The translations under genes were made by a program, and so were the position numbers. From Hydrocarboniphaga daqingensis (GTDB taxonomy: Bacteria > Pseudomonadota > Gammaproteobacteria > Nevskiales > Nevskiaceae): 64,000 nt of DNA. A model generated the notes under the pieces. The model searched no databases, was not told where the DNA came from, and saw only the letters and a list, made by a program, of their open reading frames with translations. The stretch covers positions 364,353-428,352 of the forward strand of contig NZ_FQWZ01000003.1 in assembly GCF_900129825.1 (NCBI RefSeq). Reading direction: 5' to 3'. Shown piece by piece: positions 46,477-64,000 of this stretch (its first letter is position 1; every line of letters begins with the position of its first letter).

Positions 46477-47448
46477 CTAGTCGCGACGCGTTGCCGCAGC
46501 ACCGCCACCCTGTAGCGGAGGTACTCGAGTCATCAAGCCATCGTAGGTGCCGCGGACCGTCACCTTGAGCTTGGTCCAGCGATCTGGTTCGTACGCGAGT
46601 GACTTGGCGAGCAGCTTCGCGCCTGAGATCAACTCGTAAGCGGCCCAACTCGGAAAGCGTCGGCCGTGTGCCTTCCACAGAAACACTCGGTTTCTTGCGA
46701 GGTAGTAGTGGCGGATCGCTGCATGGTGCGTGGGGTACGCCTTCAGTAGGCCGAGCATCGATCGCCGCTCCATGTTCCCGATCGCATGCTGTAGCTCCGC
46801 GCGGGGAACGGCGATAATCCGTTGATCATGATGGCGAGCGCGCAAGCAGTACTCGGTATCGACCAAGTCCATAAAAAGGCCTTCCCGGAATCCGCCGATC
46901 TCGGCCCAGCTCTTTACGCTCAGCAACATGCCGGAGCTGATGGCCAGATCAACAGCGGTCGGCCCTGTCATTCGGTTTGCGTATGTCAGTTTGAATCGCA
47001 GCCGACAGCGGCCCGATGTAACCGGCCATCGGCATTCGACGTCAGCTAACTGGTACCGCACCCGCGGAACAAAGGCGGCGACGTCGGTGTGTACCGCTTG
47101 ATCGGCTTGGTCAAGCAGTGTGTCGATCATGCTGCCGATCGGCATGCTGTCGTGGTCGAGCGTCAGTGCCCAATGCAGTCCGAGCGATTGCAGATGTCTG
47201 ACACCCTGATTCAGTGCTTTGGCAATGCCCTCATTGCGCGGATTCCGAATCCAAGTGAAGCGGTCGCAGGCAAAGAATGCGTACTCGGCGCCACGTTGCG
47301 CCTGTTCCTCCGCAGGTCCGTTGTCGACCAGTACCAAGTGGGGCGTTTGATCCAGCAGGCGGGAGAGGCGATCGGCGAGATCGGCTGGCGGTCCGTAACA
47401 CACGACCACGATACCGAACGATCTTTCGCTGCGACTGCGATTCAGCAT
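46477..47448 (-). CDS. GT2 glycosyltransferase, probable rhamnosyltransferase
   Basis: 323 residues. GT-A fold of the rhamnosyltransferase group: FGIVVVCYGPPADL, VLVDNGP, RNEGIAKALNQGV and WALTLDHDSMP as the DxD-region, with no membrane anchor. The wbbL/rfbF-like pattern plus the dTDP-rhamnose genes make rhamnose the likely donor sugar; this is inference. Last gene of the long minus-strand operon, overlapping the GT61 gene by seven bases. Confidence 0.85.
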   Translation of the reverse strand: MLNRSRSERSFGIVVVCYGPPADLADRLSRLLDQTPHLVLVDNGPAEEQAQRGAEYAFFACDRFTWIRNPRNEGIAKALNQGVRHLQSLGLHWALTLDHDSMPIGSMIDTLLDQADQAVHTDVAAFVPRVRYQLADVECRWPVTSGRCRLRFKLTYANRMTGPTAVDLAISSGMLLSVKSWAEIGGFREGLFMDLVDTEYCLRARHHDQRIIAVPRAELQHAIGNMERRSMLGLLKAYPTHHAAIRHYYLARNRVFLWKAHGRRFPSWAAYELISGAKLLAKSLAYEPDRWTKLKVTVRGTYDGLMTRVPPLQGGGAAATRRD

Positions 47449-48509
47449 GTTGAGTCCAGGACCTGCTCCAGCACGGAAATGGGCAACTCGAAGTCACTGC
47501 CGGTCGGATTATGTGCGTCGATCGCGCGGCCAAAGATCAGATCGATGTCGACTGATAAGTGGTGCGCCAGATCCCAGTAGAACAGCGCAGGCATCGTGGA
47601 CGGGCACAGCACGATGAATCGCTTCAGACTGTGACTGAATAGGGCATTGGTCAGCGAAGCTCCCAAAATTCCCACGACGATATCGGCACCGACAAAGGTA
47701 TCGATCTGATCGCTGATCGACATCGAACCACAGTTGACTCGGGTGAATCCTCGCTTCTCCAGCGCCGTCCACACCGCGTCGTCATTGGTCAGCCGTCGAT
47801 TGCCGACATCATCGCGTCCGACAAACAGGCGCCGGGGCGATGCAGACCTGCGAGCCCAACCAGCGAAGGCACGCCGCAGATCAGGAACGCTGGCCGGACT
47901 GTGAACGGCCGGTGGATCGCTGCAAAGCGCCGGCCACCACAACTGAGCAAACCGTACGCTATCGGCGAGGGGCCTGACGGCGACCCCAGGCGCGATCATT
48001 TGGAGCGTTCGCTGCGCAAGATCCAGATTGCGAGGATGGACCCACACCGCGTCAAGCTCGGGTAATGCACGCTGTGCCGCGATGAATCGGGGCAGCGCAT
48101 CCATCAACCAGTGTCCGTAGTTGCCAGCGCCGACTTGACGCAGTAACAGGGCAGGGCGCTCGCTGGTGATGGCTTGTGTGCTCGCCCGCAATCGATCGAA
48201 TTGCTCGTGTGCAGCGCGTTGGTTGGTGGGCCACGGCGCGTGAGGCCCACCAGGGATCGAATCGCTGATCAGTGTGCCGTCGGACGTGAACAGATACCCG
48301 TCGCCGACGACGGTGGCCTCGCTGAACCTCACTAAGCCTTGCCAGCCCAGCACCGCGTCGAGTTGGCCGTAGCGCGCCGCGAACTGGGGTGCAATCGCTT
48401 GGTTCCAGAGCCTTGCAGGGCGGCGTCGATAGGACTGCGACGTCGCATACGTCGTGATTGGCCCGCCGGTGGCGCGCACGTAATCCAAGGCGGAGCTGAT
48501 CGGCGTCAT
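47442..48509 (-). CDS. GT61-family glycosyltransferase
   Basis: 355 residues from ATG 48509. The GT61 (DUF563) motif GNYGHWLMDALPRF lies near residue 128, then RRLFVGRDD, RRLTNDD and the C-terminal VGILGASLTNALFS. Bacterial GT61 members occur in capsule and LPS loci and include xylosyl- and GlcNAc-transferases. The donor is unknown. Confidence 0.85.
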   Translation of the reverse strand: MTPISSALDYVRATGGPITTYATSQSYRRRPARLWNQAIAPQFAARYGQLDAVLGWQGLVRFSEATVVGDGYLFTSDGTLISDSIPGGPHAPWPTNQRAAHEQFDRLRASTQAITSERPALLLRQVGAGNYGHWLMDALPRFIAAQRALPELDAVWVHPRNLDLAQRTLQMIAPGVAVRPLADSVRFAQLWWPALCSDPPAVHSPASVPDLRRAFAGWARRSASPRRLFVGRDDVGNRRLTNDDAVWTALEKRGFTRVNCGSMSISDQIDTFVGADIVVGILGASLTNALFSHSLKRFIVLCPSTMPALFYWDLAHHLSVDIDLIFGRAIDAHNPTGSDFELPISVLEQVLDSTC

Positions 48510-48526
48510 CCGTGACAGTTTAGTGG

Positions 48527-49393
48527 CTAAACGTCGTAGCCCATCGCCGCGATATCCGACGCGAACGACAGAAACAGCGCGCGGTCTTGGTCGTCCGCCT
48601 CGGTCTGCCATCGCCCGATCGACTGCTCTGCGGATTCGGTGGTGCTGTGATGCTCGGTCAGTGGATCGCGCTCGAGAGCCTGTCTGAGCATCTGCCGCAG
48701 ATACGGTAAGTCGTTACGGACGCCGAGCCATTCGAACAAGCGCTGAAAGTAGGCCGCACGCCCTGCCGTGATCGATTCGTAGTTGCACCGGTAGATGCGC
48801 CCAGGAAATGCTTGGCGCAATTGCGTGAACCGGCGCCACGAATACACGATGCTGCGAAACATGGCCTCGTTGCCGTTCGTCTCGCCAAAGCCGGAGGAGT
48901 ACGGCGCCTTGCGGTTGAAAGCCTTCATGGAAAAGTAAACGTCGCGCGGGTCGCGGAACAGAAACAGAGCGCGGCACTGCGGGTCGGTTTCCAGCAGGTG
49001 CGTGCTGAGTTTGATCCCGATGGCCTTCTCGGCGATCCATCTCGGCGTGGTCTTGTCCTGTGCGTCGGCGAGGTGCTTGTAAAAAGCCAGGGCGGCGCCG
49101 GCTGAAGGTGCGTGCCGGGCACCCTGTTCCCGAATCCATTCAATTGCCTCTTGGTCTTCACCCTGGCACGGGGCGTAGGCCACCGGACCATGCGGTTCGG
49201 GCGCCTGGCTGACGCTGACGCTGCCGTTGAGTGCGCCTGCTTCGGCGTATTGGCGAAATCGTGTTTCGTATGGGAAGCGATCACGCACCATGACATCCTG
49301 GTGCTGCGACAGAATCCGCATCGTCAGCGTGCTGCCGGCGCGCCCGGTCGAGCAAAGCAACAGAAACGATGGTGGTTGCGGCAACTCAGACAT
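48527..49393 (-). CDS. sulfotransferase (PAPS-dependent)
   Basis: 288 residues. 5'-phosphosulfate loop LLLCSTGRAGSTLTMRIL at the N-terminus, and 3'-phosphate-binding region ALFLFRDPRDVYFSMKAF near residue 147. It probably transfers sulfate from PAPS to a sugar hydroxyl of the glycan made here. One of four sulfotransferase-like genes in the locus. PAPS synthesis genes (cysDNC) are not in the window. Confidence 0.85.
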   Translation of the reverse strand: MSELPQPPSFLLLCSTGRAGSTLTMRILSQHQDVMVRDRFPYETRFRQYAEAGALNGSVSVSQAPEPHGPVAYAPCQGEDQEAIEWIREQGARHAPSAGAALAFYKHLADAQDKTTPRWIAEKAIGIKLSTHLLETDPQCRALFLFRDPRDVYFSMKAFNRKAPYSSGFGETNGNEAMFRSIVYSWRRFTQLRQAFPGRIYRCNYESITAGRAAYFQRLFEWLGVRNDLPYLRQMLRQALERDPLTEHHSTTESAEQSIGRWQTEADDQDRALFLSFASDIAAMGYDV

Positions 49394-49456
49394 GGCCTTT
49401 CTCAGACAGGGATATCGTTGCCAGCGCTACGTCGTGCGTGCGCCGTGGGCGCTAGC

Positions 49457-50431
49457 CTAGGCCTTGCCGACGTAGGTTCGGGGGCTGTTGTTGACGTCCT
49501 TAACCTCGCCCTTGATGCGCACGCGGACCACGTCACCTTCCTTGAGTCGACGGTCGTCGGGCAACACCAGCCGAAAGCCGCATTCGCCGGTGGGGTGAGC
49601 TTTCTGTGCCAAGTCTTTGCGAAACTGGTTTGCGAGCACCGTTCCCGCGTGTTGGTCATTGATCCAGACGTCGATCGACACGGGTTCCGTGGTGCCTCGC
49701 ATCATGGCCCATCCTGATACGAAGCTGGCTTCTGCGCGGTCTAGGAAGCCGTATCCTCCCCAGGTGCGCGACGTCATCAGATAATCGGCCGGTGTTTCGC
49801 GGACGAAGCGGCGTGCGGCTCGAATGTGTTTCTGGTCGGAAACACCCGCATAGGCGGCCAACTGCCCCACGAAGCGTCCCGGATTCAGCATCGCCTTCTC
49901 ATAGGAGATCAACGCCATTCGCTCGTTGCTCTTGGAGATGATGGCCATCAATTGACGGTACTGCTCTACCGTGTGAGCCATGTTGGCCAGAAGATCGCTG
50001 CGCACCGAGATTCGGTTGCGGTTCGCGATGGCGAAGACGTCCCGGAAAATCACGAGAAACTCGGGATTGCGGAACTGACGCTTGACGCGCTCGATGTGCT
50101 CATAGGCCGATGGGCGCTTCCAGCCCCAAACCTTCCTTTCAGCGTTCTTCTGTGCGATTAGAGATTTGAGGCGGTTCGTGTCCTTGCCTTCTACCGCCTC
50201 GCTCAGCGCGACGTCCTCGTAGACGGTATTGGGCTTACCGCCCATGCCCATATCGATGCCGAGGTGATGGAGAGCGCCCGATACCATCGTCGTGCCGCTG
50301 CGCGCCACGCCGAGCACGATCAGCGTCCGTTCGGCGGGCGGCGGGCCGGGCCAGTTGATGCGAAGAAAGCCCGTGTTATCGAGCTTGGAGAGGTCGAGCT
50401 CGGGTGGAGCTTGGGTGGTTTGGGCGGTCAA
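49457..50431 (-). CDS. sulfotransferase with C-terminal GWA-type module
   Basis: 324 residues. PAPS loop LIVLGVARSGTTMVSGAL at 38-55, a KVWGWKRPSAYEHI region near 100, and FLVIFRDVFAIANRNR near 125-140 as the second phosphate site. From about residue 230 a separate beta-rich module begins: SGWAMMRGTTEPVSIDVW, later KAHPTGECGFRLVLP. The same module forms the N-terminus of the ABC permease at 56642 in this operon. Similar modules occur in other glycan enzymes and may bind substrate or anchor the protein; function unproven. Eight bases separate it from the GT2 gene. Confidence 0.85.
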   Translation of the reverse strand: MTAQTTQAPPELDLSKLDNTGFLRINWPGPPPAERTLIVLGVARSGTTMVSGALHHLGIDMGMGGKPNTVYEDVALSEAVEGKDTNRLKSLIAQKNAERKVWGWKRPSAYEHIERVKRQFRNPEFLVIFRDVFAIANRNRISVRSDLLANMAHTVEQYRQLMAIISKSNERMALISYEKAMLNPGRFVGQLAAYAGVSDQKHIRAARRFVRETPADYLMTSRTWGGYGFLDRAEASFVSGWAMMRGTTEPVSIDVWINDQHAGTVLANQFRKDLAQKAHPTGECGFRLVLPDDRRLKEGDVVRVRIKGEVKDVNNSPRTYVGKA

Positions 50432-50438
50432 GTTGGGA

Positions 50439-52811
50439 TCAGCGTGCGTCGAGTTGCAGGTAATGGGGCGCTTCCAAAGACAGTGACAAGTCTTCGTGCT
50501 CCAGCGTCAGGCACGGGTTGTAGCTCCGGTCATGCAGCAGCAGATCACGCCAACGGGTTTTCATGTACTGAACTTCGGCGGCGAAGCGCAGCCGCTTTTC
50601 GGGAGTGTCCTCCTGCCCTCTGGACAGAGACTCAAAATGCAGGAGTTCGGCGTAAGGGGTCCACACGGTCCGTAGCTTGCGTTCTGCCAACCGCAAGCAA
50701 AAGTCCACGTCATTGAACGCCACCGCCAGATTGACTTCGTCCAGGCCCCCCAACGCTAGATAGTCGGCCTTCTTCACTAGCAAACAGGCGCCCGTTACGG
50801 CGGAGACGGTCTGTGGCAGGACCAGCCGGCCGAAGTAACCCAAATGGTGGCGCGGATAGTACTTGTGGCTGTGGCCGGCGACGCCGCCGACCCCAAGGAT
50901 GACGCCTGCATGTTGAATGCGTCCATCGGGGTACATCAGCTTGGCACCGACAGCGCCGACACCGGGCTGGTAAAGCCGCGGAACCATCTCGTTGAGCCAG
51001 TCACCTGTCAGAACTTCGACGTCATCATTGAGCATCAATAGGACGTCGCCTATCGCTTCCTTTGCTCCGAGATTGTTGACCGCGGAAAAATTGAACGGAG
51101 CGTCGTAGCTAATCACGCGAACACGACGATCCAGCTGATAGCGCGACAACAACGACAGCGTGCGGGGGTCCGCGCACTGGTTATCGATGATCAGAATCTC
51201 GTAAGCCGGGTACAGCGTGCGCCTCAGGATGCTGTCGATGCAGCGCTCAAGCGCATCACCCCCGTCGCGCGTCGGAATCATGATGGACACGAGGGGGGCG
51301 GGCGACGGCATTGGGTACCGAACCCGATAACTGGTCGGAAACGGCCCGTCAGAAACGTGGGCACCGATCGGCGCCATGTGCTCACTCAGCGCAGCGATCC
51401 CGCTCGGATGTGCGCCGGCTTTGGCTCCGAGGACTTGGGCGGTCGAGCCGTGTGACTTTCGCCAGTGATAGAGCACACCGGGTACATGAACAATCTGATC
51501 CGGTCTTATGGCATCAACGCAGCGCAGTACGAGGTCGTAGTCTTGACTGCCATCGAATCCGGCTCTGAAGCCGCCGACCGCTTCGACCACGTCGCGTCGC
51601 ACCACCAGCATATGACCGAAGTAGTTGATTGAGTGCAGTAAGTCCGGATTCCACGCCGGCTTGAAATGCGGCTCGCAGCGCTGACCGTTCTCGTCGATCT
51701 TATCCTCGTCGGAGTAGAGCAACGCGGCTTCAGGAAACTGTCGAAGCGCACGGGCCATACGGTCCAGTGCCCAGCGCGCAAGGGTGTCGTCTTGGTCGAG
51801 GAACGCGATGTAGTCCCCGGTCGCCGATGTCAGCGCGGCGGATGAAGCACGCGCAATACCACCGTTGACGACATGGCGCTGAACTTTGAGCCGGGGCTCC
51901 CGCTCCGCCAGCTCGGAAATCTGGGTCCAGACATCGGGTTCGGTTGATGCGTCATCGCAGATACACAGTTCCCAGTGGGGATAGGTCTGTGCCATCACCG
52001 ACGCGATGGCCTCGATCAGCTGCGCAAGCTCTGGGTTATAGACCGGCATTACGATCGAGAATGTAGGACCTTCCTCTTTGGCCGCCTTCATCGCCATCCG
52101 ATCGCAATCGTCTTCGGTGGGCTCGACAGAATTCACCCAATCGCGGTAGTCAACGATGCGCTGATAGGGCTGCAGCAGGGGGCGATTGGCCACACCACGA
52201 AGCTGCCAGTAAAGAGGTGAAAGACGGTGACGTGTGCGGCGGTAGATGCCACGTAGCGTCAGGATGAATTGGTCCGCGAGGCCTAGAGAGGTAATCGAAA
52301 GGCAGCCCAAGCTAAACGGGCCAGCGTGCTCGGTCGGATCTAAACGCAGCCGGCGCAAGCCCAGCGGCATGAAGCAGACGCATTCGATTTCGCCGCGGTG
52401 TCCTGCGATACCCAACAACACCTGAGTGCGCTCGCTGAACCCCCCGCGGCTGTCTCGATACAGCTTCACGCAGCCGCTGCCTCGTAGCGCATCGACCGAC
52501 ACCCGAACGCGACACCAGCCCCGTGGGAGGCGCCACCATGGCAGCGCGACGGCAAAACATGGATCGGCATCGATGGCGACCCAGGCCGACCCGACTGGTT
52601 CCAGTGGCAGCCCTTCTTCGTACTCGGGATGTTCTTCCAGACCGCGTAACGGGCGCAGGGGCAAGGCGCCCGATCGGGCAAACGGCTTGAACAACAGAAT
52701 AATCAGCCCAACCCACCACCGGACAATAAAACCAAGCGCCCCGTGATCGAGGCGGGCGAGGCTATGCCGAAGTACGGAGCGTAAGGAGGGCGCGATCCCC
52801 GATAGCGGCAT
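50439..52811 (-). CDS. large two-domain GT2 glycosyltransferase
   Basis: 790 residues. The N-terminal ~220 residues contain one membrane-like segment (ALGFIVRWWVGLIILLF) and a beta-rich region. Two GT-A domains follow. The first has FSIVMPVYNPELAQLIEAI, YIAFLDQDDTLARWAL and YSDEDKID. The second has VSIMIPTRDGGDALERCI, LMLNDDVEVL and a GACLLVKKADY acceptor region ending FNDVDFCLRL. Architecture resembles O-antigen enzymes of the WsaE/RfbC type that build alternating linkages, so it may make most of the backbone. Sugars unknown. Confidence 0.9.
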   Translation of the reverse strand: MPLSGIAPSLRSVLRHSLARLDHGALGFIVRWWVGLIILLFKPFARSGALPLRPLRGLEEHPEYEEGLPLEPVGSAWVAIDADPCFAVALPWWRLPRGWCRVRVSVDALRGSGCVKLYRDSRGGFSERTQVLLGIAGHRGEIECVCFMPLGLRRLRLDPTEHAGPFSLGCLSITSLGLADQFILTLRGIYRRTRHRLSPLYWQLRGVANRPLLQPYQRIVDYRDWVNSVEPTEDDCDRMAMKAAKEEGPTFSIVMPVYNPELAQLIEAIASVMAQTYPHWELCICDDASTEPDVWTQISELAEREPRLKVQRHVVNGGIARASSAALTSATGDYIAFLDQDDTLARWALDRMARALRQFPEAALLYSDEDKIDENGQRCEPHFKPAWNPDLLHSINYFGHMLVVRRDVVEAVGGFRAGFDGSQDYDLVLRCVDAIRPDQIVHVPGVLYHWRKSHGSTAQVLGAKAGAHPSGIAALSEHMAPIGAHVSDGPFPTSYRVRYPMPSPAPLVSIMIPTRDGGDALERCIDSILRRTLYPAYEILIIDNQCADPRTLSLLSRYQLDRRVRVISYDAPFNFSAVNNLGAKEAIGDVLLMLNDDVEVLTGDWLNEMVPRLYQPGVGAVGAKLMYPDGRIQHAGVILGVGGVAGHSHKYYPRHHLGYFGRLVLPQTVSAVTGACLLVKKADYLALGGLDEVNLAVAFNDVDFCLRLAERKLRTVWTPYAELLHFESLSRGQEDTPEKRLRFAAEVQYMKTRWRDLLLHDRSYNPCLTLEHEDLSLSLEAPHYLQLDAR

Positions 52812-52873
52812 CCCCTACCAGCCTGTACAGCCGTCGCCCGTTGGTTGGCAACTCAGGCCACTGCGAAGTCGGG

Positions 52874-53074
52874 TCACTTCTGTCCGGAGATACGCCGGTG
52901 TTCGTTGAAAACGGCGTCGTGGATCAGCGTGAACGCGCGGGCGATCTGGGCTGCATCATGATCCAGCGTGTTCTGCCGCACGCGGGGGTCGGGCTGCAAA
53001 GACAGCGTCTTCGACTCAAGCGCCGCGACCACGATCTTGCAGGCGATGTCCATCGTGCTGGACTGAGTTTCCAT
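52874..53074 (-). CDS. small protein of unknown function inside the capsule operon
   Basis: 66 residues from ATG 53074, preceded by the strong Shine-Dalgarno AAGAAGGGA at good spacing. The sequence METQSSTMDIACKIVVAALE, later DHDAAQIARAFTLIHDAVF, looks helical and soluble, with no signal peptide or membrane segment. It lies between kpsD and the GT2 gene on the same strand. I do not recognise a family; position and RBS argue that it is real. Confidence 0.6.
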   Translation of the reverse strand: METQSSTMDIACKIVVAALESKTLSLQPDPRVRQNTLDHDAAQIARAFTLIHDAVFNEHRRISGQK

Positions 53075-53116
53075 CAATTGATCCCTTCTTATTTGATTGT
53101 AGATTGGCGGTCGATA

Positions 53117-54838
53117 TTACAGCCTAGCTACGACACCGGCCGCAATCGCGATTTGGTAGATGACTTGGATGATGTCCTTCGAGAACTGGAACTTCTTGCT
53201 GTCAACGGTCGGCAGCACCAGTACTTCGTCTCCCGGATTGACCAGAGTGCCGGAGCCCTGCGTGATCTCACCTGATGGACTGATCACGAGGATTCTATCG
53301 CTCGACGACCTCTGGAGCACACCGCCGGCTTGCTCAACGTAATCACCCGCATCCTGCCGCTTGCGCCAGATGAACGAGTTGGGCAAATACACCTCGCCGT
53401 GGACCTGCACCACGTTGCTGACGCGTGGAATGCGCAGCACGTCGCCGTCTTCGAGCGCAATCGTGCTGGGGTCGACGCCCGCATACAACACAACTTGGCC
53501 CTTGGGCTGGATCAACTTCGCGCGCTCGACGAACTGCAGCACGAGCGCCGCCTCCTTGGACCGGAGTTCTGCTTCCTCCGGCGTCCAGGATCTGGCGTTG
53601 AGCACGGATTGCTCCAGCTTCTGCAGTGTCTCATCGAGAACCTGCTTCTGACGCTCGGCAACCGTCTTTCTAAACAGTTGTAGGCCGGCGCTGTTGGACT
53701 GGGCGGAATACTGGATCTGCTTCAGCAGGTCGGCCAGCGTGGCCTCGTAGGGCAAAACGTAAAAACCAGCGCTCTCATGTTCACCTTCTACCGCGACGGC
53801 AATTTGCTTTACCAGCCGGTCGGCCGTCACTTCGATCTCGTCGCCGGTCTTGGCCTCGGTATCGAGAAATGGATCGTTGACCGGGACGTAGAACGCGTCG
53901 CGCTTGGGGCCGACGTTGCGAGCAAGGCGTACGTGAGTGGCGCGCCCGCTGATGCCGGCAATCGATAGCAAGTCGCGGATCACGGTCCCGGGTTTGAACT
54001 CGAACTGAGCCGTGTTGGTGACGAGGCCCGATATCTTCACGCTCGGCCCAGACGGCCCGACGAACACGCTGTCGCCATCCTTGAGCTGGGGGGCCGGCAG
54101 GAAGCCTTCGGTCATGAACCGATACAGATCGACTTGGCTGACGACCTGACCGCCGCGCAGCAGGCGGACGTCCAGGTAACTGCCCGTCTTTGGATTGATG
54201 CCGCCGGCGCGATCGAGAAAAGTCAGGATCGAATCCGATGCAAAGCCTGGGTAGAGGCCAGGGCGTTGCACGAAGCCCGACACGAATACCTTGACCGGTA
54301 CGGCGGCTGCCAGCGTCGCGTAAACGCCGACGTCCGCCTTGAATACCGAGCGAATGCGGTTTTCCACCGTCTCGTTGAGCCGTTCGTTGGGGACGTTGGC
54401 AACTTGAACCGGGCCTACTTTGGGCACAAATACATTGCCTTGGGCGTCGACCGTCAATTCCAGTTGGTTTTCGACGGCACCCCACATCCGCAGCGCAATC
54501 GTATCGCCGACGCTGATGATGTAGTTGGGATTGAAGCCTTTGAACGACTCCCGCGCAAAATTGCCTTGGAACAAGACCTGGCCAAAGACCGGATTCGTAC
54601 TGAGCGTGGTCTCGACGATCTGAGAGGCGGTCGTCACCCCCGTCGTCGTTGCGAAGTCATCGAAGTCAGACGGCGTTGGCAGATTGACGGTGCCGGCCCG
54701 AGGAGCGACACCGGCCGGCGCTGGCGCTGCACTGCTACTTGAGGCAGGCGCAAGGCGTGCAGGGGCAGTCTGAGCCCATGCCGGGTTGCCCAACATGGCC
54801 GCAAGGCTCGCGATGAAAACCAAATGGCGGGTACGCAT
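53117..54838 (-). CDS. kpsD: polysaccharide export outer-membrane protein (KpsD/Wza type, SLBB domains)
   Basis: 573 residues with signal peptide (FIASLAAMLGNPAWAQ), no lipobox. Poly_export domain from about 100 (YIISVGDTIALRMWG), followed by several SLBB-like repeats, and VVQVHGEVYLPNSFIW and a C-terminal segment DIIQVIYQIAIAAGVV. Length equals KpsD rather than lipoprotein Wza. It forms the periplasmic/outer-membrane channel for ABC-exported capsule and follows kpsE closely. Confidence 0.9.
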   Translation of the reverse strand: MRTRHLVFIASLAAMLGNPAWAQTAPARLAPASSSSAAPAPAGVAPRAGTVNLPTPSDFDDFATTTGVTTASQIVETTLSTNPVFGQVLFQGNFARESFKGFNPNYIISVGDTIALRMWGAVENQLELTVDAQGNVFVPKVGPVQVANVPNERLNETVENRIRSVFKADVGVYATLAAAVPVKVFVSGFVQRPGLYPGFASDSILTFLDRAGGINPKTGSYLDVRLLRGGQVVSQVDLYRFMTEGFLPAPQLKDGDSVFVGPSGPSVKISGLVTNTAQFEFKPGTVIRDLLSIAGISGRATHVRLARNVGPKRDAFYVPVNDPFLDTEAKTGDEIEVTADRLVKQIAVAVEGEHESAGFYVLPYEATLADLLKQIQYSAQSNSAGLQLFRKTVAERQKQVLDETLQKLEQSVLNARSWTPEEAELRSKEAALVLQFVERAKLIQPKGQVVLYAGVDPSTIALEDGDVLRIPRVSNVVQVHGEVYLPNSFIWRKRQDAGDYVEQAGGVLQRSSSDRILVISPSGEITQGSGTLVNPGDEVLVLPTVDSKKFQFSKDIIQVIYQIAIAAGVVARL

Positions 54839-54843
54839 GCTTC

Positions 54844-56642: not shown

Positions 56643-57877
56643 TAGTTGGTCAAATGAGAAAGGTGTTTGCGGTAGGCGACAAAGCCGATCCACAGCGAAA
56701 ACAGTGTCCACAATCCGATGTAAACCCAACTCCCCGGTGAATCATATGCGGACAGCATTTCTCCGCGAGCAAGATCGACACCGTGCAGAATCGGATTCCA
56801 GATGATGTAGGGCGCGATCAGATCCGGAATCTGTTCCATTGTAAAAAAGGCACCCGACAGAAAAAGCAATGGCCTGTTCATCATGTCGACAAATCGGCGG
56901 ATTTCTTGGTTCTTGGTGATGTAGACGTCAGCCCACAAACCAAGTCCGAGCGCCAGAGAAAAGAGTAGACCGATGGCGGCGAAGAATCCGAGCAGATTAT
57001 CCGCCTCGACAGGACGTCCAATCCACAGTAATACGAATACGATGACAAACTTGAGTGCCAGCATCATCATCAACTCAATGACTGCGGCAACCAAAACTGC
57101 ATCGATAGGACGAACCTGACGATAGCTAAAGATGCCCTTTGCTGCCGAAATCGATCCCATGCAGCTATTGAATACGCGGATGAAGATAAAGAACGAGATC
57201 ACGCCGATGGAGTGATAATAAAACCCATCTACGCCGCCTTCCTCTCCTCCGAACTTGCCGCCCCCTCGGCCGGCCAGCATGCGTGAGCCACGCAGCAAGG
57301 CCATATAAAACAGGGGCTCGGCGATCGCCAGAAAGTACCCGAAGCGCTGGCTGCCATAACGCAGCTTCATTTGCCGCAGGAACAACGCCGTGAATGAGTC
57401 CGCGAAAATCCGCAAGCTGTTGCGTTGCGGTGGAGGCGGCAGCGGCGGCAACTCCGGCAAAGTCAGTACAGCGGAGCTGATCTTGGGCTGGCCTGTCTCG
57501 GTGGCCGCTGCCGTTGCAGCGGGAGGCGAAGGAGTGGGCGACTGCGGCGGTGGAGCCGGTGTCTGATGCTCCGCGCCTTTGCACAAGGCCGGGCTACCCG
57601 AAAGATCGCGCTCTGCCCCAACGGGCCGAACCGACACAAGATCAGAAGCCTGGAGTTGCTCGCCCTCGGGGATGGCTAAAAAGAAGCCACACAGCCCTGT
57701 CGGATGGAGTCCCTTCGCTTTAACGTCGGCCCGTAGACGATCCGCCAGAATCGTCTTGTAGGGCACACCGTTGATCTTGACGTCGAGACTGAGCGGCGCG
57801 CCGTCGCCCTCGGCGTCCATCGCCCAGCCGCGGATTTCGCGGGGGCTGACACGATCCAGGTGTCCAATTACGCGCAT
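56642..57877 (-). CDS. kpsM: capsule ABC transporter permease (KpsM type) with extra N-terminal module
   Basis: 411 residues against about 260 for usual KpsM. Residues 1-100 form an extra module: RVSPREIRGWAMDAEGDG, then GLHPTGLCGFFLAIPEG. It matches the C-terminus of the sulfotransferase at 49457. A Pro/Ala-rich linker follows (about 103-150, TPAPPPQSPTPSPPAA). The ABC-2 permease domain starts at about 152 with six helices, RQMKLRYGSQRFGYFLAIAEP and NPILHGVDLARG. It also has a Gly-rich loop (GRGGGKFGGEEGG) in the first periplasmic part. First gene of the export operon. Confidence 0.92.
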   Translation of the reverse strand: MRVIGHLDRVSPREIRGWAMDAEGDGAPLSLDVKINGVPYKTILADRLRADVKAKGLHPTGLCGFFLAIPEGEQLQASDLVSVRPVGAERDLSGSPALCKGAEHQTPAPPPQSPTPSPPAATAAATETGQPKISSAVLTLPELPPLPPPPQRNSLRIFADSFTALFLRQMKLRYGSQRFGYFLAIAEPLFYMALLRGSRMLAGRGGGKFGGEEGGVDGFYYHSIGVISFFIFIRVFNSCMGSISAAKGIFSYRQVRPIDAVLVAAVIELMMMLALKFVIVFVLLWIGRPVEADNLLGFFAAIGLLFSLALGLGLWADVYITKNQEIRRFVDMMNRPLLFLSGAFFTMEQIPDLIAPYIIWNPILHGVDLARGEMLSAYDSPGSWVYIGLWTLFSLWIGFVAYRKHLSHLTN

Positions 57878-57978
57878 AAAAGTCTATACACCGAGGCTGA
57901 TTACGAGCGCACCATTGGCATTGCCGCCGCCGCAAGCAGCATCACAAGCGCCGGCTGCCGAGGTGTGCTGCCGGGTGG

Positions 57979-58500
57979 TCAGCGAGACTTTTTCGACTTT
58001 GATTTCTTCGGCGCTCGGAAGGTAGATGTACCTTCGGCGCTGGCGGCGGCTGCGCTGGCGGACTCCGTCGCCGCGGGCGCTTTTGCCGGTACGCCGGCCT
58101 GTTCAGCCGGCTTGCTGTCCGTTTTTTCCTTAATGGTCAGAAGGTTCTGAGAACGCAACTGGCGAATCAACTTGTTCGCCGAGCTCGCAACGTCCTGCGC
58201 TAAGGCTTTTGCGTCGGCGCTGGTACCTTGCGTTTTAAACCATGCGCGAGCCTGTGCAAGCTGTTCGGTCAGAGTGCGCGCGGCGTACTCCCGCGCGAGG
58301 TTGGTTTGGGCGTTCCGCGATGCCAGCCATGCGACGACCTGCTTCTTCTCGTCGTCCGTCAACTGACTCTTGAGGTCGGCCGACAATTCCGGATTCTTGA
58401 CTGCCATGTGCCCGACGAGCACGGCGCGTCCCTTCTTCGACTCGTTGTCGTACACAGTGCGAATCAGTTGGATGACCTTGTTCCGCTGCCGGATATGCAT
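57979..58500 (-). CDS. unrecognised protein with basic C-terminal tail
   Basis: 173 residues from ATG 58500, chosen because MHIRQRNKVIQLIRTVYD looks like a conserved N-terminus; an ATG at 58608 would add 36 residues of little character. A helical core (SADLKSQLTDDEKKQVVAWL; LAQDVASSANKLIRQL) is followed by an Ala/Lys-rich tail ending FRAPKKSKSKKSR. A DNA- or RNA-binding tail is suggested by composition only. Upstream of kpsM on the same strand, 101 bases away. Confidence 0.65.
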   Translation of the reverse strand: MHIRQRNKVIQLIRTVYDNESKKGRAVLVGHMAVKNPELSADLKSQLTDDEKKQVVAWLASRNAQTNLAREYAARTLTEQLAQARAWFKTQGTSADAKALAQDVASSANKLIRQLRSQNLLTIKEKTDSKPAEQAGVPAKAPAATESASAAAASAEGTSTFRAPKKSKSKKSR

Positions 58501-58892
58501 GGGCGTTAGCTCTACGTGATGTGGGATGTGCAGCAAAGTCGATGCCGCTGGGGCCGATAACGGGCAATATATTGCCTGCGCCGCTTTCGTTGCGTCAACG
58601 GCGTTCATTTCATGCGCCGCCCAGCCGATACCGGTCGAGCGTCCAGTTGGCTCTGCTCAAACAAATCAATAAAGTTACAATTTGGTCAAGCACTTGACGA
58701 TGCCGGGCGAGATGTTCGGAGGTCTGTGGTGTCCAGCGAACCGCGGTGCGTGCGCCTCGCCACTGGCACAGCAGCGTGTCGTCAAAGCAAACCGCGCCAC
58801 CGATGGGAGGCATTTTTGAGTTGCAGAGATTTCACTTGGGCCACTCGTCAACCCGTGACCCCGAGTCTGGTATCCGGGGCCGAGGTTCGGTG
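58501..58892. other. divergent intergenic region of the two capsule operons
   Basis: 392 bases between the minus-strand gene at 58500 and the plus-strand operon at 58893. Around 58655-58700 it is locally AT-rich and has TTGACC on minus (58684-58689) and TTGACG on plus, but neither has a convincing -10 at 16-18 bases. A 67-codon minus-strand frame here has no Shine-Dalgarno and is not called. Confidence 0.4.
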
Positions 58893-59816
58893 ATGGCTGA
58901 CCATTCCGTGGTGCTTCACCTCGGGGCGCATAAGACCGCCACGACCTACCTCCAGCGGCTGTTTTTCAAAAATCGGCAGCTGCTCGAATCAGATCTCGGT
59001 TTTGGCTACGTGCCCATGTTCCGCCTTCGAGCTGACGTCACCACGCGTCTGGATCGCGCCGATTCGCAGCCGGAGCGGTCGCAGATGGTCGAGGCGCTGC
59101 GCGGCTATGGCGTCGGCCTCGCATCCGACGGCCGCAGAGTTCTGCTTTCCGACGAAAACCTTATTGGCGACTGCGCCGAGATCATGCGCTCCGGGAAGTT
59201 GTATCCGCGCGTGCTGACTCGGCTACGGCGCCTACGTGAGTTGCTGGGCCAGGAGCCGCGCGAGATCTGGTTTGCCGTCCGGGCCTATGACCACTTTTTG
59301 GCCTCTGCTTATGTCGAAGCAAACCGACATGCCAAAGAGTTTTTGTCATGGGATGCAACGGCGGCCCGAGTCGATCTGTCGCGTCGACGTTGGCCTCAAG
59401 TTCTGGCCGATGTCCGAACCGTGTTTCCCGGCGCCCGTGTCAGGGTTTGGGCGTTTGAACAGTTCGTCGCTGACGACCGGTCGGTAATACGCCATCTGAT
59501 CGGCGAGGGGGCCGCCCGGCTTGTATACATCGAAGAGGCCGTTCGTGCCTCATCGTCGGCTGACGCCATGCGAGTCGCCGAACTGTTGAGTCAAACGCTC
59601 GGACCTGCGGCAGCGGCGTCGGTGTTTGCCGAGCTAGATGCGCTGTTGCCCAAATCGGCAACGCGGTTGGGCTTCAGTCCCTGGTCGGATGACGACAAAG
59701 CCGCGTTTCGCCGATTGTACGAGGCCGATCTTCAGCAGCTTGGACAAGCTGGCGGCCTAGAGTTGATCTCGGTTGCCGACCAGGTTGCTGCACCTCGCCC
59801 GACCGCCGCGATATGA
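58893..59816 (+). CDS. sulfotransferase-like protein (HxGxHKTATT type)
   Basis: 307 residues from ATG 58893 with GAGG seven bases upstream. N-terminal VVLHLGAHKTATTYLQRLFF is the phosphosulfate-binding loop of a subgroup common in polysaccharide loci. LLSDENLIGDCAEIM and EIWFAVRAYDHFLASAYVE, the latter with the second phosphate site, follow. First gene of the plus-strand operon; overlaps the next by four bases. Confidence 0.78.
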   Translation: MADHSVVLHLGAHKTATTYLQRLFFKNRQLLESDLGFGYVPMFRLRADVTTRLDRADSQPERSQMVEALRGYGVGLASDGRRVLLSDENLIGDCAEIMRSGKLYPRVLTRLRRLRELLGQEPREIWFAVRAYDHFLASAYVEANRHAKEFLSWDATAARVDLSRRRWPQVLADVRTVFPGARVRVWAFEQFVADDRSVIRHLIGEGAARLVYIEEAVRASSSADAMRVAELLSQTLGPAAAASVFAELDALLPKSATRLGFSPWSDDDKAAFRRLYEADLQQLGQAGGLELISVADQVAAPRPTAAI

Positions 59817-60703
59817 GTACTGGTTATCTATTGCTGGTTCACGACCAGCCTGCACAGGTCCGTCGGCTGGTTTCGGCGCTGCAGGGCCCGGGTGTTAGCT
59901 TCATCGTTCATGTCGATGCCAAGGCCGACAGGGCTTCGTTTGTAGTGGCATTGCGTGGGCTTTCGGGTGTGCACGTGCTGCCGCCGTCGGCGAGTGTCGC
60001 GGTCAACTGGGGCGGATATAGCCAGACGCAGGCCATGCTCAATCTTTGCGCAGCAGGGCTTGAGCAATGTACCGACGCTCATCGCTTTACGTTGCTAAGT
60101 GGCGCCTGCTATCCGGTCGCCAGCAACGCGCGGCTGCAGGCGCTGGCGTCATCTCCTGCCCTGATGATCGACCTGAAGCTGACGCCGCCCGAACTGCCCC
60201 GCTACGAGCGGGTTCGGCACTATCACCTGTCGGACCATCCGTTGACCAACCGGCGCGGCAGCACCGACCGGAGTCCGCGCGAGCGCAGTTACATTCGTTA
60301 TATCAAGGACTTCGTGTCATCACTGCCGCCACGGCCACCGTTCCCGGTGCCGCTTTACTACGGGCCTACGTGGTGGTCATTGACTCGCCCGGCACTGGAG
60401 TACGTGATGCGACACTGCCGAGAGCACCCCGAACTGCTAACGGAGTTCCGTTACTCCGCCCACGCTGACGAGCATCTGGTCCATACCATTCTCGGCAATT
60501 CGCATTGGGCCGAGGCGAGTATCGGCTGTGGCCACTACTATGTCTGGGAGGAGCACCCCAAGCGACACTGCCGAACGCTCGACATCAGCGATCTCGATCG
60601 CATCCCGCCGACGGCGTTGTTCGTAAGAAAGGTCGATCCTGCAGGTTCGGCTGAGCTGCTCGAGCGGCTCGACCAAGCGCGCGCCCCAACAGAGGCGCCT
60701 TGA
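59813..60703 (+). CDS. GT14-family (core-2/I-branching type) glycosyltransferase, copy 1
   Basis: 296 residues. GYLLLVHDQPAQVRRLVSAL, VHVDAKAD, VAVNWGGYSQTQAML, LLSGACYPVAS and YGPTWWSLTRPALEYVM are the hallmarks of the Branch/GT14 family (animal core-2 beta-1,6-GlcNAc transferases and xylosyltransferases). No membrane anchor. In bacteria it probably adds branches to the capsule or O-chain. Coupled to the sulfotransferase upstream. Confidence 0.87.
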   Translation: MSTGYLLLVHDQPAQVRRLVSALQGPGVSFIVHVDAKADRASFVVALRGLSGVHVLPPSASVAVNWGGYSQTQAMLNLCAAGLEQCTDAHRFTLLSGACYPVASNARLQALASSPALMIDLKLTPPELPRYERVRHYHLSDHPLTNRRGSTDRSPRERSYIRYIKDFVSSLPPRPPFPVPLYYGPTWWSLTRPALEYVMRHCREHPELLTEFRYSAHADEHLVHTILGNSHWAEASIGCGHYYVWEEHPKRHCRTLDISDLDRIPPTALFVRKVDPAGSAELLERLDQARAPTEAP

Positions 60704-60715
60704 TAGCGCATCCAA

Positions 60716-61642
60716 ATGAAACTTATCTATCTCCTGCTCGCGCACGATCAGCCGAAACAATTGCGACGTCTGGTTTCTGCGCTCAATTGCGACGATGTGG
60801 CGTTCTGCATTCATATCGACCAGAAGGCGAGCCTCGCTCCATTCATGATCGAGCTTGCCGGGATGCCGAACGTTCAGTTCGTCGATGACCGGGTATCGGT
60901 CAACTGGGGTGGGTTCAGTCAGACCGAAGCCATCATGCGATTAATGCGCACGGCGCTGGCCTGTTGGCCTGATTCGAAGCGTATGTACCTGATCAGCGGC
61001 TCGTGCTATCCCCTGGCGTCCAATACGCAGTTGCTAGCGACCTGCGACACCGACGATCAGCTGATCAAGGCCAAGTTTTTCAAGCCGGGTACGCCGCGCG
61101 CTGAGCGTGCCAGTCGCTACAACATCTCCGACCACCCGTACCTCAACAAGCGGTGGGTGAACATGGCGCGTGAGCGCACCGACCGAAACGTGCTGCTGGA
61201 ACTACAGCAATACATCGGCGAGTTCCTCGAAAAGCTCCCGCCCAAGCCCGACTTGGGTATGCCGTTTCACGGTGGTGCGACATGGTGGGGTCTGACCGCG
61301 GATGCCGTTCGCTATGTGCTCGATTATTGCGATCAGCACCCTGCATTTGTCGACTACTTCAGGTTTTCGCTGCACGCCGACGAATCCATGGTCCATACCT
61401 TAATCGCCAACTCCTCATTTCCAATCAAGAAGGGTATGAAGGCGTTCCACTACGTTGACTGGTCACCGGCCAGCATCGCCAGGAAAAAGTATCTGGATGT
61501 CGACTCGCTCGACAAAGTGGACTGGGTGTCGCAGCTGTTTATCCGAAAAGTGCACCCTGATTTGTCGTCGGCGTTGATGGACCGTATCGACGAGCGCCGT
61601 GCTGCTCCGGATCAGGTCGTCTGGGGTACCTATGGCGATTGA
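60716..61642 (+). CDS. GT14-family (core-2/I-branching type) glycosyltransferase, copy 2
   Basis: 308 residues, a clear paralogue of the previous gene: LIYLLLAHDQPKQLRRLVSA, IHIDQKAS, VSVNWGGFSQTEAIM, LISGSCYPLAS, GGATWWGLTADAVRYVL and SLHADESMVHTLI. The two copies diverge enough to suggest different acceptors. It overlaps the following gene by 11 bases. Confidence 0.87.
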   Translation: MKLIYLLLAHDQPKQLRRLVSALNCDDVAFCIHIDQKASLAPFMIELAGMPNVQFVDDRVSVNWGGFSQTEAIMRLMRTALACWPDSKRMYLISGSCYPLASNTQLLATCDTDDQLIKAKFFKPGTPRAERASRYNISDHPYLNKRWVNMARERTDRNVLLELQQYIGEFLEKLPPKPDLGMPFHGGATWWGLTADAVRYVLDYCDQHPAFVDYFRFSLHADESMVHTLIANSSFPIKKGMKAFHYVDWSPASIARKKYLDVDSLDKVDWVSQLFIRKVHPDLSSALMDRIDERRAAPDQVVWGTYGD

Positions 61643-62351
61643 GCGTCGGTTCGTCATCTTTACGGCGGCGCGAACCGGATCCAATGCCCTGGTTTCATCT
61701 CTGGCCGCCAGCAGCGAGATCCACTGTGATTACGAGCTGTTTCACCCGGAGCAGATTTACTGCACAGCCGGTCTGACGCAGAAGACCATCCAGCAACGCA
61801 ATCGTGACCCTAAGGCGTTTCTCGACGACCTAATTCTAAATGCGTCGAAACACAAGCCGTCGGCTCGCGTTTACGGCTTCAAGATTTTCTTCACGCACAA
61901 CCGCAAAGCGCGGGAGTACCTGCTCAACGATCGTTCCTGGGCCAAGGTCATCCTCCAACGCGAGAATGTGTTGGATCAGTTCATATCTCACAAAATCGCC
62001 GCGGGCTCGGAGATGTGGGACACGACCAATGTCGCCGTCAAAAGCGTGTCGCGGATCCGATTTGTGCCGGCACAGTTTGATCTGTTCGTCGAGCGGCTCG
62101 AGCGTCAAGGCAGCGAAACCCGCGCTTTTCTGCAGCAGACGCAGCAACCGTTTTTCGAGATTGGATATTCCGACGTAGAGGCGAATCGGTACGAACCGCT
62201 GTGTCATTACTTGCAGGTTCAGCCGACTGACAATATGGCGCCGCGGATCGGCAAGCAAAACAAGCGTCAAACGGCTCTCAAGTTGGTCAATCCCGAGGTC
62301 GCCCGGGCGCATCTTGCCACTCGAGGCCTCGGCCACCTCTGGGTGGATTGA
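61632..62351 (+). CDS. sulfotransferase-like protein (NodH/Stf0-like)
   Basis: 239 residues from ATG 61632. RRFVIFTAARTGSNALVSSL is the NodH/Stf0-type PAPS loop, FHPEQIYC follows in the conserved place, and KVILQRENVLDQFISHKIA is the second phosphate site. NodH-type enzymes sulfate glycolipids or oligosaccharides. Fourth sulfotransferase-like gene of the locus. Confidence 0.8.
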   Translation: MAIERRFVIFTAARTGSNALVSSLAASSEIHCDYELFHPEQIYCTAGLTQKTIQQRNRDPKAFLDDLILNASKHKPSARVYGFKIFFTHNRKAREYLLNDRSWAKVILQRENVLDQFISHKIAAGSEMWDTTNVAVKSVSRIRFVPAQFDLFVERLERQGSETRAFLQQTQQPFFEIGYSDVEANRYEPLCHYLQVQPTDNMAPRIGKQNKRQTALKLVNPEVARAHLATRGLGHLWVD

Positions 62352-62418
62352 GTTTCGCAGTACGATTCATAGACCGGTCAGACAACATCGGCCGCCTCCA
62401 ATAATAACGATAGAACCC

Positions 62419-63447
62419 ATGCACCTTCAGATCGACCAAACCCAACTCGCCCGCCTCGCGGCAATGCCCGAGACTCTCAAGTACGAAGGCGAATTCGGCG
62501 CGGAACTGGTCACCTTCATCCCGTTCGTTTACTGGTGCCATTGCATCGGCCTGTTCAAAGGACGCAAGGTGTCGACCTACAAGGGCATGCGCCCTCTCTA
62601 TTACTTTCTAGGCGACGACCAGGTTATCGAGCGGGACGACACTCGGCATTGGGTCCCGTTTGCTCAGCGCAAATCGCCGGATCAGTGGCTGGTGCTGCCC
62701 AATGCCAACGAACACACGTCGGTGCGCAGCCCGATGGAATACTTCCCTGATTATCGGTCTGCTTTTTCAACCGGGGAGCTGACGTTTGATAAGCCGCTGG
62801 TTGTCATTCACAACAAATACAATCTTGAGTGGAACAACGAACCGCCACGCAACTTTTTCTCGCTCGAGGACCTCGAGGAGATGTTCAATCTACTGAAGGG
62901 CGGATATCAGGTGGTGTACATCCGCCACGGCATGGGCGGCGTTTCGCAGGGATACAGCCTGGACCACAATCAGTTGATGGATTTCGGCGATGCCGATCTG
63001 CTGACGCGTCATCCCGAAGTATTATCGTTCAACGCGCTCCACGAACGCTTCAAAGATCGCTTCTCGGTCAACGCCTTCAAGGCGGCGCTTTATGCCAAAA
63101 GCTATCGGTTCATATCGGTACAGGGCGGCGGCGCCTACCAATGCGCAATGTATTCTGGGTCGGGACTGCTGATCTATCACAAGGACGGCCCTGAGATTCA
63201 TCATTCGTATTCCAAGGGATTCTTCACGCGAACCGCCAATCCAGCGCCGTTGTTGCTGGTAGCAACCAACCGCGCTGAGTTAATGGCAGGTGTGCAGGCT
63301 ATCGGTAGTGGCTTCGTGTTCAGCGGACGGTTCATTCCCGGATCAAAGCACATCAACCGAATGAAGCGTCTGTCGCCGCACCGGTTCAAGCCCAAGCGGC
63401 CAGCGAAGTACGGCATGGCGGAGTTGCCAGTTCACCTTGTTCAATAA
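62419..63447 (+). CDS. unrecognised protein family, tandem copy 1
   Basis: 342 residues from ATG 62419. Not recognised. Marked segments: EFGAELVTFIPFVYWCHCIG, RKVSTYKGMRPLYYFLGDDQ, FDKPLVVIHNKYNLEWN, YQVVYIRHGMGG and RFISVQGGGAYQCAMYSGSG. The last resembles the donor-side strand-loop of some GT-B type glycosyltransferases (GT61 and fucosyltransferase-like), so a transferase is possible but unproven. No signal peptide. The neighbour at 63470 is a close paralogue. Confidence 0.75.
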   Translation: MHLQIDQTQLARLAAMPETLKYEGEFGAELVTFIPFVYWCHCIGLFKGRKVSTYKGMRPLYYFLGDDQVIERDDTRHWVPFAQRKSPDQWLVLPNANEHTSVRSPMEYFPDYRSAFSTGELTFDKPLVVIHNKYNLEWNNEPPRNFFSLEDLEEMFNLLKGGYQVVYIRHGMGGVSQGYSLDHNQLMDFGDADLLTRHPEVLSFNALHERFKDRFSVNAFKAALYAKSYRFISVQGGGAYQCAMYSGSGLLIYHKDGPEIHHSYSKGFFTRTANPAPLLLVATNRAELMAGVQAIGSGFVFSGRFIPGSKHINRMKRLSPHRFKPKRPAKYGMAELPVHLVQ

Positions 63448-63469
63448 ATCGCGGGTTGGGGATGCGCGC

Positions 63470-64000
63470 ATGAGTCACGACAACAAAACGGCTGCCTATT
63501 TCGGTGCGCGCGATTTGCCGGACGTGATTGACTACGTCGGCGAATTTGGGGCGGAGCTGGTTACGTTTCTGCCCTTCGTCTATTGGCTATATCGCGCCGG
63601 CCAACTAGGTGACCGCAAAGTGTCGACCTATCGCGGTATGCGCCCGCTTTATTTTTTTCTGAGCGATGATCAGTTGATCGAAAAAGACGAGCCGCGTCGA
63701 TTCGTTGGCTACCAAAAGCGCACTGATCCTTCGATATGGGGATTCATTCCCAATCCGAACGAACTGATCGCAACCCGGAACGCCTATGAGGCCTTTCCGA
63801 ATTATCGCAAGCAATTTCAGTCGACGCGTTTTTCGTTCGATAAACCTTTGCTCGTGGTTCACAACAAGTTCAACCGCGAATGGAACTCCGATACGCCAGT
63901 CAACTTCTTCTCCATTGATCAATTGGAGCAGATGTTCTCGCGGCTGAAAGGGTACTACCAGATCGTTTATCTCCGACATGGTCGCAGCGGTAGCGTAGAC
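63470..64000 (+). CDS. unrecognised protein family, tandem copy 2 (3' end outside the window)
   Basis: An ATG at 63470, preceded by GGGGA, opens a frame that runs to the last base (177 codons). It repeats the segments of the gene before it: EFGAELVTFLPFVYWLYRAG, RKVSTYRGMRPLYFFLSDDQ, FDKPLLVVHNKFNREWN and YQIVYLRHGRSG. The operon evidently continues beyond the window. Confidence 0.8.
   Translation, partial: MSHDNKTAAYFGARDLPDVIDYVGEFGAELVTFLPFVYWLYRAGQLGDRKVSTYRGMRPLYFFLSDDQLIEKDEPRRFVGYQKRTDPSIWGFIPNPNELIATRNAYEAFPNYRKQFQSTRFSFDKPLLVVHNKFNREWNSDTPVNFFSIDQLEQMFSRLKGYYQIVYLRHGRSGSVD

Follow-up and report, generated by a model that had tools for sequence, protein, structure and literature searches.

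Gene clusters for sulfated capsules have been published for Vibrio and Cobetia. The capsule of Vibrio sp. KMM 8419 was shown to be sulfated by nuclear magnetic resonance, and its cluster includes kpsMTED, wecA, rhamnose genes, a GT61 glycosyltransferase gene, and three sulfotransferase genes (PMC11641403). Cobetia marina KMM 1449 produces a sulfated capsule with sulfated rhamnose and carries kpsETMD, kpsSC, and genes for the synthesis of 3′-phosphoadenosine-5′-phosphosulfate (PAPS; PMC11766843). Here, we describe a locus in Hydrocarboniphaga daqingensis (Nevskiaceae, Gammaproteobacteria), a large part of which lies in a 64,000-nucleotide stretch of contig NZ_FQWZ01000003.1 (C5:364353-428352, where C5 is this contig; hereafter the window). 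Its product is probably a rhamnose-containing surface polysaccharide, sulfated in the cytoplasm before KpsMTED exports it. This reading draws on the sulfotransferase families, the match of the exporter to a solved KpsMTE, the rmlABCD genes, PAPS genes in the genome, the clustering of one sulfotransferase group (HKTGT), a cassette that recurs in other genomes, and the parallel with Vibrio sp. KMM 8419.

Among chemically proven sulfated capsules, that of Vibrio sp. KMM 8419 is the closest parallel. Both loci have kpsMTED, wecA, rhamnose genes, GT2 and GT61 genes, and several sulfotransferase genes, and neither has kpsC as far as the Vibrio cluster is described (PMC11641403). However, the Vibrio cluster has three sulfotransferase genes compared to 13 sulfotransferase-like genes here; it includes cysCND, whereas the PAPS genes here lie 93 kb past the window end; and it has kpsS, for which we found no counterpart (PMC11641403). 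The locus is further set apart by a module, here called GW, on both KpsM and one of the sulfotransferases (ST2). The Cobetia locus resembles ours in its kpsETMD exporter, rhamnose, and sulfotransferase genes, but it has kpsSC and a wcb operon (PMC11766843). The synechan xss cluster of Synechocystis 6803 likewise combines a sulfated extracellular polysaccharide with two sulfotransferases of different subfamilies, although synechan is Wzx/Wzy-dependent, while the exporter here is an ABC (ATP-binding cassette) system (PMC8205485). A preliminary description of the window had proposed a sulfated polysaccharide, which is strengthened by the proven sulfation of a capsule made by a locus of the same plan; its remark that sulfated capsules are rare needs qualifying in light of the published Vibrio and Cobetia clusters (PMC11641403, PMC11766843). 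Altogether, the locus is known in kind, but it is an unusually sulfotransferase-rich example of the sulfated-capsule type.

The window truncates the locus and holds only the first part of a large gene cluster. The flanking DNA, which the preliminary description considered necessary to complete the operon, shows that the locus runs from rmlDCB (window position 40886) to about C5:466234, i.e., ~38 kb beyond base 64000, with nine more sulfotransferase-like genes in this extension. Genome-wide statements are based on profile searches of genomes, including our own (G000; 3.79 Mb, 13 contigs, 99.3% completeness, 0.01% contamination) and the compared genomes (other G numbers). Positions without a contig label are window positions. 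The features in the window are as follows:

40886..41773, minus: rmlD, dTDP-4-dehydrorhamnose reductase (TIGR01214, 313 bits, cut-off 224)
41773..42453, minus: rmlC, dTDP-4-dehydrorhamnose 3,5-epimerase (TIGR01221, 255 bits, cut-off 156)
42375..43445, minus: rmlB, dTDP-glucose 4,6-dehydratase (TIGR01181, 477 bits, cut-off 365)
44250..45452, plus: WecA-type undecaprenyl-phosphate sugar-phosphate transferase, probable chain initiator (PF00953, 95 bits; TIGR02380, 64 bits, under cut-off 326)
45568..46461, plus: rmlA, glucose-1-phosphate thymidylyltransferase (TIGR01207, 469 bits, cut-off 361)
46477..47448, minus: GT2, probable rhamnosyltransferase (PF00535; TIGR01556, E=1.3e-40, 139 bits, under cut-off 201)
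47442..48611, minus: GT61 glycosyltransferase (PF04577, 69 bits)
48527..49393, minus: ST1, sulfotransferase with loop STGRAGST (PF13469, 51.1 bits, cut-off 27; PF00685, 22.6 bits, over cut-off; P-loop and R-x7-S)
49457..50431, minus: ST2, sulfotransferase with loop GVARSGTT and C-terminal GW module at 49460-49762 (PF13469, 36.6 bits, cut-off 27; GW E=8.5e-26)
50439..52811, minus: glycosyltransferase with two GT2 domains (PF00535, 149 bits, 2 stretches); adjoins ST2 here and in several relatives
53117..54838, minus: KpsD-type outer-membrane polysaccharide export protein (OPX; PF02563, PF22461, and PF10531 over cut-off)
54844..55980, minus: KpsE, BexC/CtrB/KpsE family (8tsh_E, E=4.6e-62; TIGR01010, 284 bits, under cut-off 438)
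55977..56729, minus: KpsT ABC ATPase, start likely near 56642 (PF00005; 8tsi_A, E=8.3e-59)
56642..57877, minus: KpsM permease with N-terminal GW module at 57563-57877 (PF01061, 43 bits; 8tsh_C, E=5e-24, residues 151-405; GW E=3.1e-28)
57979..58608, minus: 209-aa open reading frame upstream of KpsM, no Pfam match
58746..59816, plus: ST3, HKTGT-group sulfotransferase-like protein with loop HLGAHKTATT, start likely near 58890 (no Pfam match; leave-one-out group profile E=1.4e-16)
59813..60703, plus: GT14-type (core-2/I-branching) glycosyltransferase (PF02485, 79.7 bits)
60716..61642, plus: GT14-type glycosyltransferase, paralogue of the 59813..60703 gene (PF02485, 78.1 bits)
61599..62351, plus: ST4, Stf0/NodH-type sulfotransferase with loop TAARTGSN, start likely near 61632 (PF09037, 22.2 bits, cut-off 22; with ST10, profile match to 9vki, E=2.5e-9)
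62314..63447, plus: tandem pair member a, family unassigned (no Pfam/NCBIfam match over cut-off; 47% identical to member b)
63437..64000, running on to 64510, plus: tandem pair member b (47% identical to member a)

Most of what the preliminary description named is borne out. KpsMTED, two GT2 genes (one with a double domain), one GT61 gene, and two GT14-type genes are confirmed by Pfam and structure-sequence matches, and the genes do form two divergent operons, which part between 58608 and 58746. In order of transcription, the minus-strand operon encodes the 209-aa protein, KpsM, KpsT, KpsE, the KpsD-type OPX, the two-domain GT2, ST2, ST1, GT61, and GT2, and the plus-strand operon encodes ST3, the two PF02485 proteins, ST4, and the two tandem proteins without known family. 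The WecA-type gene sits among rmlA, rmlB, rmlC, and rmlD, each of which exceeds its NCBIfam cut-off. Beyond the window, the locus continues with GT2, GT4, and WbsX-GT4 genes, an esterase-like gene, a 1423-aa protein, and the nine further sulfotransferase-like genes (at C5:428927, 430400, 435094, 436106, 436946, 451229, 456928, 458118, and 459044).

The full locus thus contains 13 sulfotransferase-like genes, which fall into five sequence groups. The four PAPS-type loops reported earlier are all in open frames, and each of the four genes falls either in a sulfotransferase family or in a group linked to such families. A P-loop is visible in all 13 proteins, and R-x7/8-S, the 3′ motif of PAPS-dependent sulfotransferases, in all except ST2. 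Six (ST1, ST2, ST4, ST8, ST10, and ST12) reach a Pfam cut-off; ST7, ST11, and ST13 have sub-cut-off scores for PF03567, PF00685, or PF06990; and ST3, ST5, ST6, and ST9 have no Pfam match. These last four are all members of the HKTGT group, and a profile of the other seven members of that group recovers ST3 (E=1.4e-16). Against the PDB, the HKTGT-group profile retrieves 3rnl (E=1.6e-4) and SULT1A1 (E=4e-3), the ST11-13 group profile retrieves heparan sulfate 6-O-sulfotransferase (E=2e-9) and the 3-O- and 2-O-sulfotransferases (between 1e-5 and 1e-4), and the ST4/ST10 profile retrieves 9vki, annotated as “LPS sulfotransferase NodH.” Comparing the groups with each other by hhalign, with thin input alignments of 2-8 rows, the only support is a short match between ST7/8 and ST11-13. 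Within the whole genome, four of the five HKTGT-group matches fall within the locus. The number of genes does not by itself bear out the earlier suggestion that several positions are sulfated: thirteen genes need not equal thirteen sulfated positions, and part of them may be inactive or act on a different glycan.

The genome encodes adjacent ATP sulfurylase and adenosine 5′-phosphosulfate (APS) kinase at C5:521-523 kb, and C13 carries a second APS kinase; the cell can thus supply its own PAPS. The absence of PAPS synthesis genes, which the preliminary description had named as grounds for refutation, is thereby removed. The presence of these genes was rejected as proof of sulfation because APS kinase is found in 60 of the 61 lineage genomes examined, our own included; PAPS supply does not discriminate and lends weak support. 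Directly after the APS kinase and ATP sulfurylase genes is a DHH-family gene (L018:10017-10985).

The exporter genes kpsM, kpsT, kpsE, and kpsD are all together in the locus. KpsT, KpsE, and KpsM match a solved capsule exporter at the E values listed above (PDB 8tsh/8tsi, which we take to be the KpsMTE of Schlegelella thermodepolymerans), and by sequence the two belong to the same exporter family. Counted from its probable start, KpsT has 221 aa and aligns over its whole length with the 8tsi KpsT (residues 1-217, one single-residue gap), and this alignment shows neither a Wzt gate-helix segment nor a C-terminal binding domain. TarH/TagH have about 18 additional residues upstream of the P-loop, a segment that both KpsT proteins lack. 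In the KpsMT system that has been studied, substrate recognition is attributed to the Kdo (3-deoxy-D-manno-oct-2-ulosonic acid) glycolipid, and KpsT is without the Wzt/TarH gate helix (PMC11041684). Studied KpsM begins with an amphipathic helix, whereas KpsM here has the added GW module in a genome where we found no KpsC/KpsS pair (PMC11041684).

By its gene content, the locus departs from the textbook group 2 capsule with a Kdo linkage, since a whole-genome search with PF05159 (Capsule_synth) found no KpsC/KpsS pair. The earlier label of a Kps-type capsule is borne out for the kpsMTED exporter, not for a textbook group 2 locus. The sole PF05159 match (39 bits, profile positions 146-267 of 310) is in the 1423-aa protein 19 kb from kpsM (C5:439781-444052; L016:13782-18053), which combines this partial Capsule_synth domain with a weak GT4-type end; it may be a divergent transferase of the initiating or the Kdo type. 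KpsM relatives (E<=1e-20) occur in 13 of 146 genomes, our own included, and in only one of the other 12 (G058) does the kpsM contig carry Capsule_synth genes no more than 40 kb from kpsM. DNA stretches retrieved around these relatives show WecA-type genes in six of 10 loci. Because Capsule_synth is mostly missing near kpsM and WecA-type genes are often present in the loci, the chain more likely starts on an undecaprenyl-linked sugar than on a Kdo glycolipid.

GW is a beta-sandwich module of ~100 residues common to KpsM, ST2, and the WbsX-GT4 protein. The KpsM N-terminus and ST2 C-terminus share 42% identity over 92 residues (BLASTP E=7e-23), and a third copy opens the WbsX-GT4 protein at the far end of the locus. 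A GW profile made without own-genome sequences and run on 43 locus proteins recovers all three (KpsM E=3.1e-28, ST2 E=8.5e-26, WbsX-GT4 E=1e-11). There is no credible match to GW in Pfam (A1 members), NCBIfam (A7 members), or PDB sequences (A1 profile). With AlphaFold2, the module is confidently modelled as an all-beta sandwich (pLDDT 91.9, pTM 0.82), for which Foldseek returns no match at E<=0.001 and VIA-align 2 returns a best Z of 8.2 among many Ig/FnIII-like domains. A known carbohydrate-binding family was considered and not found; CBM56 (Z 6.8) and FnIII rows are tied with unrelated sandwiches. Literature searches around KpsM, sulfotransferases, and related terms gave no description of a GW-like module; a module common to exporter and sulfotransferase is a feature that we have not found described.

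GW (E<=1e-6) is present in 10 of 146 genomes: seven of the 13 with kpsM versus three of the 133 others (Fisher p=7.6e-7 with our own genome and 6.0e-6 without it, indicative only, as the genomes are related). Ten matches have E<1e-25, and all are from the seven kpsM genomes, on the capsule-locus contig except in G070, where the contig differs from that of kpsM. The module is borne by four of the 13 KpsM proteins found, and elsewhere it is fused to sulfotransferases of PF13469 (L081 and a Flavobacteriales protein) and PF03567 (L083, L085). This Flavobacteriales protein (L069:10004-11668) has the order PF13469-GW-PF03567, with genes that look MBOAT-like and AlgX-like from their sequences further down. 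In a phylum sample of 398 genomes, 12 have GW at E<=1e-10. Its carriers there are glycosyltransferases, sulfotransferases, and small proteins; the latter adjoin GT4-like genes and have ends that look membrane-anchored. A 621-aa protein of relative G064 (L053:1543-3405) seems to combine GW, an ST2-type domain, and a second sulfotransferase (seen only with phmmer and the local GW profile). Our own genome has a second glycan-related locus (G000:C6:60000-95000; L064, L065) with HlyB/HlyD-like genes and GSCFA-like proteins, in which GT2/GT4 proteins bear one or two GW modules each (all named from sequence).

A profile scan of genome contigs returned three loci with the cassette. In Sinimarinibacterium (S. 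flocculans DSM 104150) and a Ramlibacter metagenome-assembled genome (MAG), KpsMTED homologues, a two-domain GT2, and ST2-GW adjoin. A Flavobacteriales MAG has a divergent form, in which a two-domain GT2, two ST2-like proteins, another sulfotransferase, and an ABC pair adjoin, along with a GW-bearing P-loop protein that has no Pfam match. The relatives' loci have 0-3 sulfotransferases each by phmmer from our own sequences versus 13 here, and PF13469 adds one each at G019:C39:22644, G004:C1:2246923, G060:C2:195226, and G064:C5:7901; these counts are rough, as the stretches are unequal in length (two are <12 kb) and phmmer misses some genes. Weak ST2 relatives are also on four of 72,556 plasmid records, from genera that we take to be Alphaproteobacteria. 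Two of these plasmids were inspected (NZ_CP081048.1 and NZ_CP033220.1; Leisingera, Parasedimentitalea), and in both, the ST2 relatives are among capsule ABC and other sugar genes, which suggests mobile sulfated-polysaccharide loci.

Sequence comparison shows which families the genes belong to, that KpsMTE match the solved exporter, that a KpsC/KpsS pair is missing, and that a module is shared; from these findings we propose the following pathway. The WecA-type enzyme would put a sugar phosphate onto undecaprenyl phosphate, the predicted lipid carrier, and the chain would then be built, in a sugar order that is likewise a prediction, by the rhamnosyltransferase and the GT2, GT61, GT14, GT4, and WbsX enzymes. 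The P-loop sulfotransferases are predicted to move sulfate from PAPS, supplied by ATP sulfurylase and APS kinase, to the sugars in the cytosol. KpsM/KpsT would carry the chain over the inner membrane, and KpsE/KpsD would then take it outwards. We propose that GW, presumably cytosolic in KpsM, ST2, and WbsX-GT4, may dock enzymes and exporter on one glycan. The most speculative step is that GW of KpsM would read the chain in place of Kdo-based recognition. In O-antigen ABC export, Wzt has a C-terminal carbohydrate-binding domain, and the likeness is the idea of an exporter that bears a glycan-reading beta-sandwich; however, this sandwich is on the ATPase C-terminus in Wzt but on the permease N-terminus here, where KpsT is without such a domain. 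In its strongest form, with GW as a new cytosolic glycan-recognition or docking domain that replaces Kdo-glycolipid recognition so that only finished sulfated chains are exported (sulfation-gated capsule export), the idea is unlikely.

Several observations weigh against the sulfated-capsule reading, and many of them bear on whether some or most of the P-loop genes might use lipids, proteins, or small molecules as substrates, or have another P-loop function altogether. Seven of the 13 genes are under every Pfam cut-off. ST2 lacks the Ser at R+8 of its second motif, and a PDB search with its profile gives no match below E=0.14. ST3 is the weakest of the four candidates in the window, since Pfam gives no match and its structure model is poor (AlphaFold2 from 3 sequences, mean pLDDT 51.7); a fold search with this model gave mostly kinases and ATPases and is uninformative. 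Searched alone against the PDB, ST3 matches no sulfotransferase, and its one hit, to a quinolinate phosphoribosyltransferase at E=2.8e-4, falls outside the P-loop. Alignment of the HKTGT group to the PF13469 and PF03567 groups by hhalign shows no link (probability 0.2 and 1.7%). The PAPS genes, near-universal as they are in the lineage, lie outside the locus. Yet the group profiles retrieve solved carbohydrate sulfotransferases among others, the candidates are interleaved with glycosyltransferases, and the strong HKTGT matches (E<1e-40) of G001, G019, and G060 sit on their capsule-locus contigs. A role other than sugar sulfation for some or most of these genes is quite improbable.

Somewhat less doubtful is that the island makes two or more glycans, e.g., a KpsMTED capsule by the window operons and a second, O-antigen-like polymer or glycolipid from the far end with ST11-ST13, GT4, and GT2, leaving fewer sulfates on each. 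The several operons in both directions with an IS3-family transposase between them, and the uneven G+C along the island, are consistent with such a division, and the authors of the Vibrio KMM 8419 study assigned one part of a similar 95-kb locus to the capsule and the other to the O-antigen, with sulfotransferase genes in each (PMC11641403). However, we see no further exporter, neither Wzx nor another ABC pair, among the annotated locus genes, and the far-end WbsX-GT4 protein has GW in common with KpsM and ST2. The third alternative concerns only the module and comes close to an even chance: GW may do no more than stabilise or dimerise glycan enzymes in a generic way, with no part in glycan recognition or export. 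This would fit its common Ig/FnIII-like fold (best Z about 8) and the weaker copies in glycosyltransferases of unrelated loci, e.g., C6:70-78 kb of the same genome, but it accounts less readily for the fusions to the permease and to sulfotransferases of two Pfam families, or for the concentration in kpsM genomes, itself indicative only. Cytoplasmic sulfation of a single exported polysaccharide remains the reading that we prefer.

Sulfated polysaccharides from bacteria are similar to heparan-type and algal polymers, and there is demand for them as materials and drugs. The sulfotransferases that make them are little characterised. The 13 candidates of five groups in one locus, some of which match heparan sulfate sulfotransferases by profile, are a compact source of enzymes. 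The shared module also opens to experiment the question of how chains are chosen by a KpsMT exporter that is without the Kdo linker enzymes.

The G+C content of the locus is 0.581 compared to 0.659 and 0.652 on its two flanks, a drop that fits acquisition from elsewhere. Inside the locus, G+C ranges 0.49-0.64, and the IS3-family transposase (C5:449077-450490; L017:4077-5490; also placed at about C5:449930-450490) is in the lowest part (0.49). Past the locus end at C5:466234 lie a gene that is presumably miaB and genes of high G+C. At the window edge, the tandem pair 62314-63447 / 63437-64510 (L016) has nothing over cut-off in Pfam or NCBIfam, no plasmid match, and a best PDB sequence match of E=0.14. 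Its two members are 47% identical to each other and flanked by sulfotransferase genes, and our guess is that they are glycosyltransferases.

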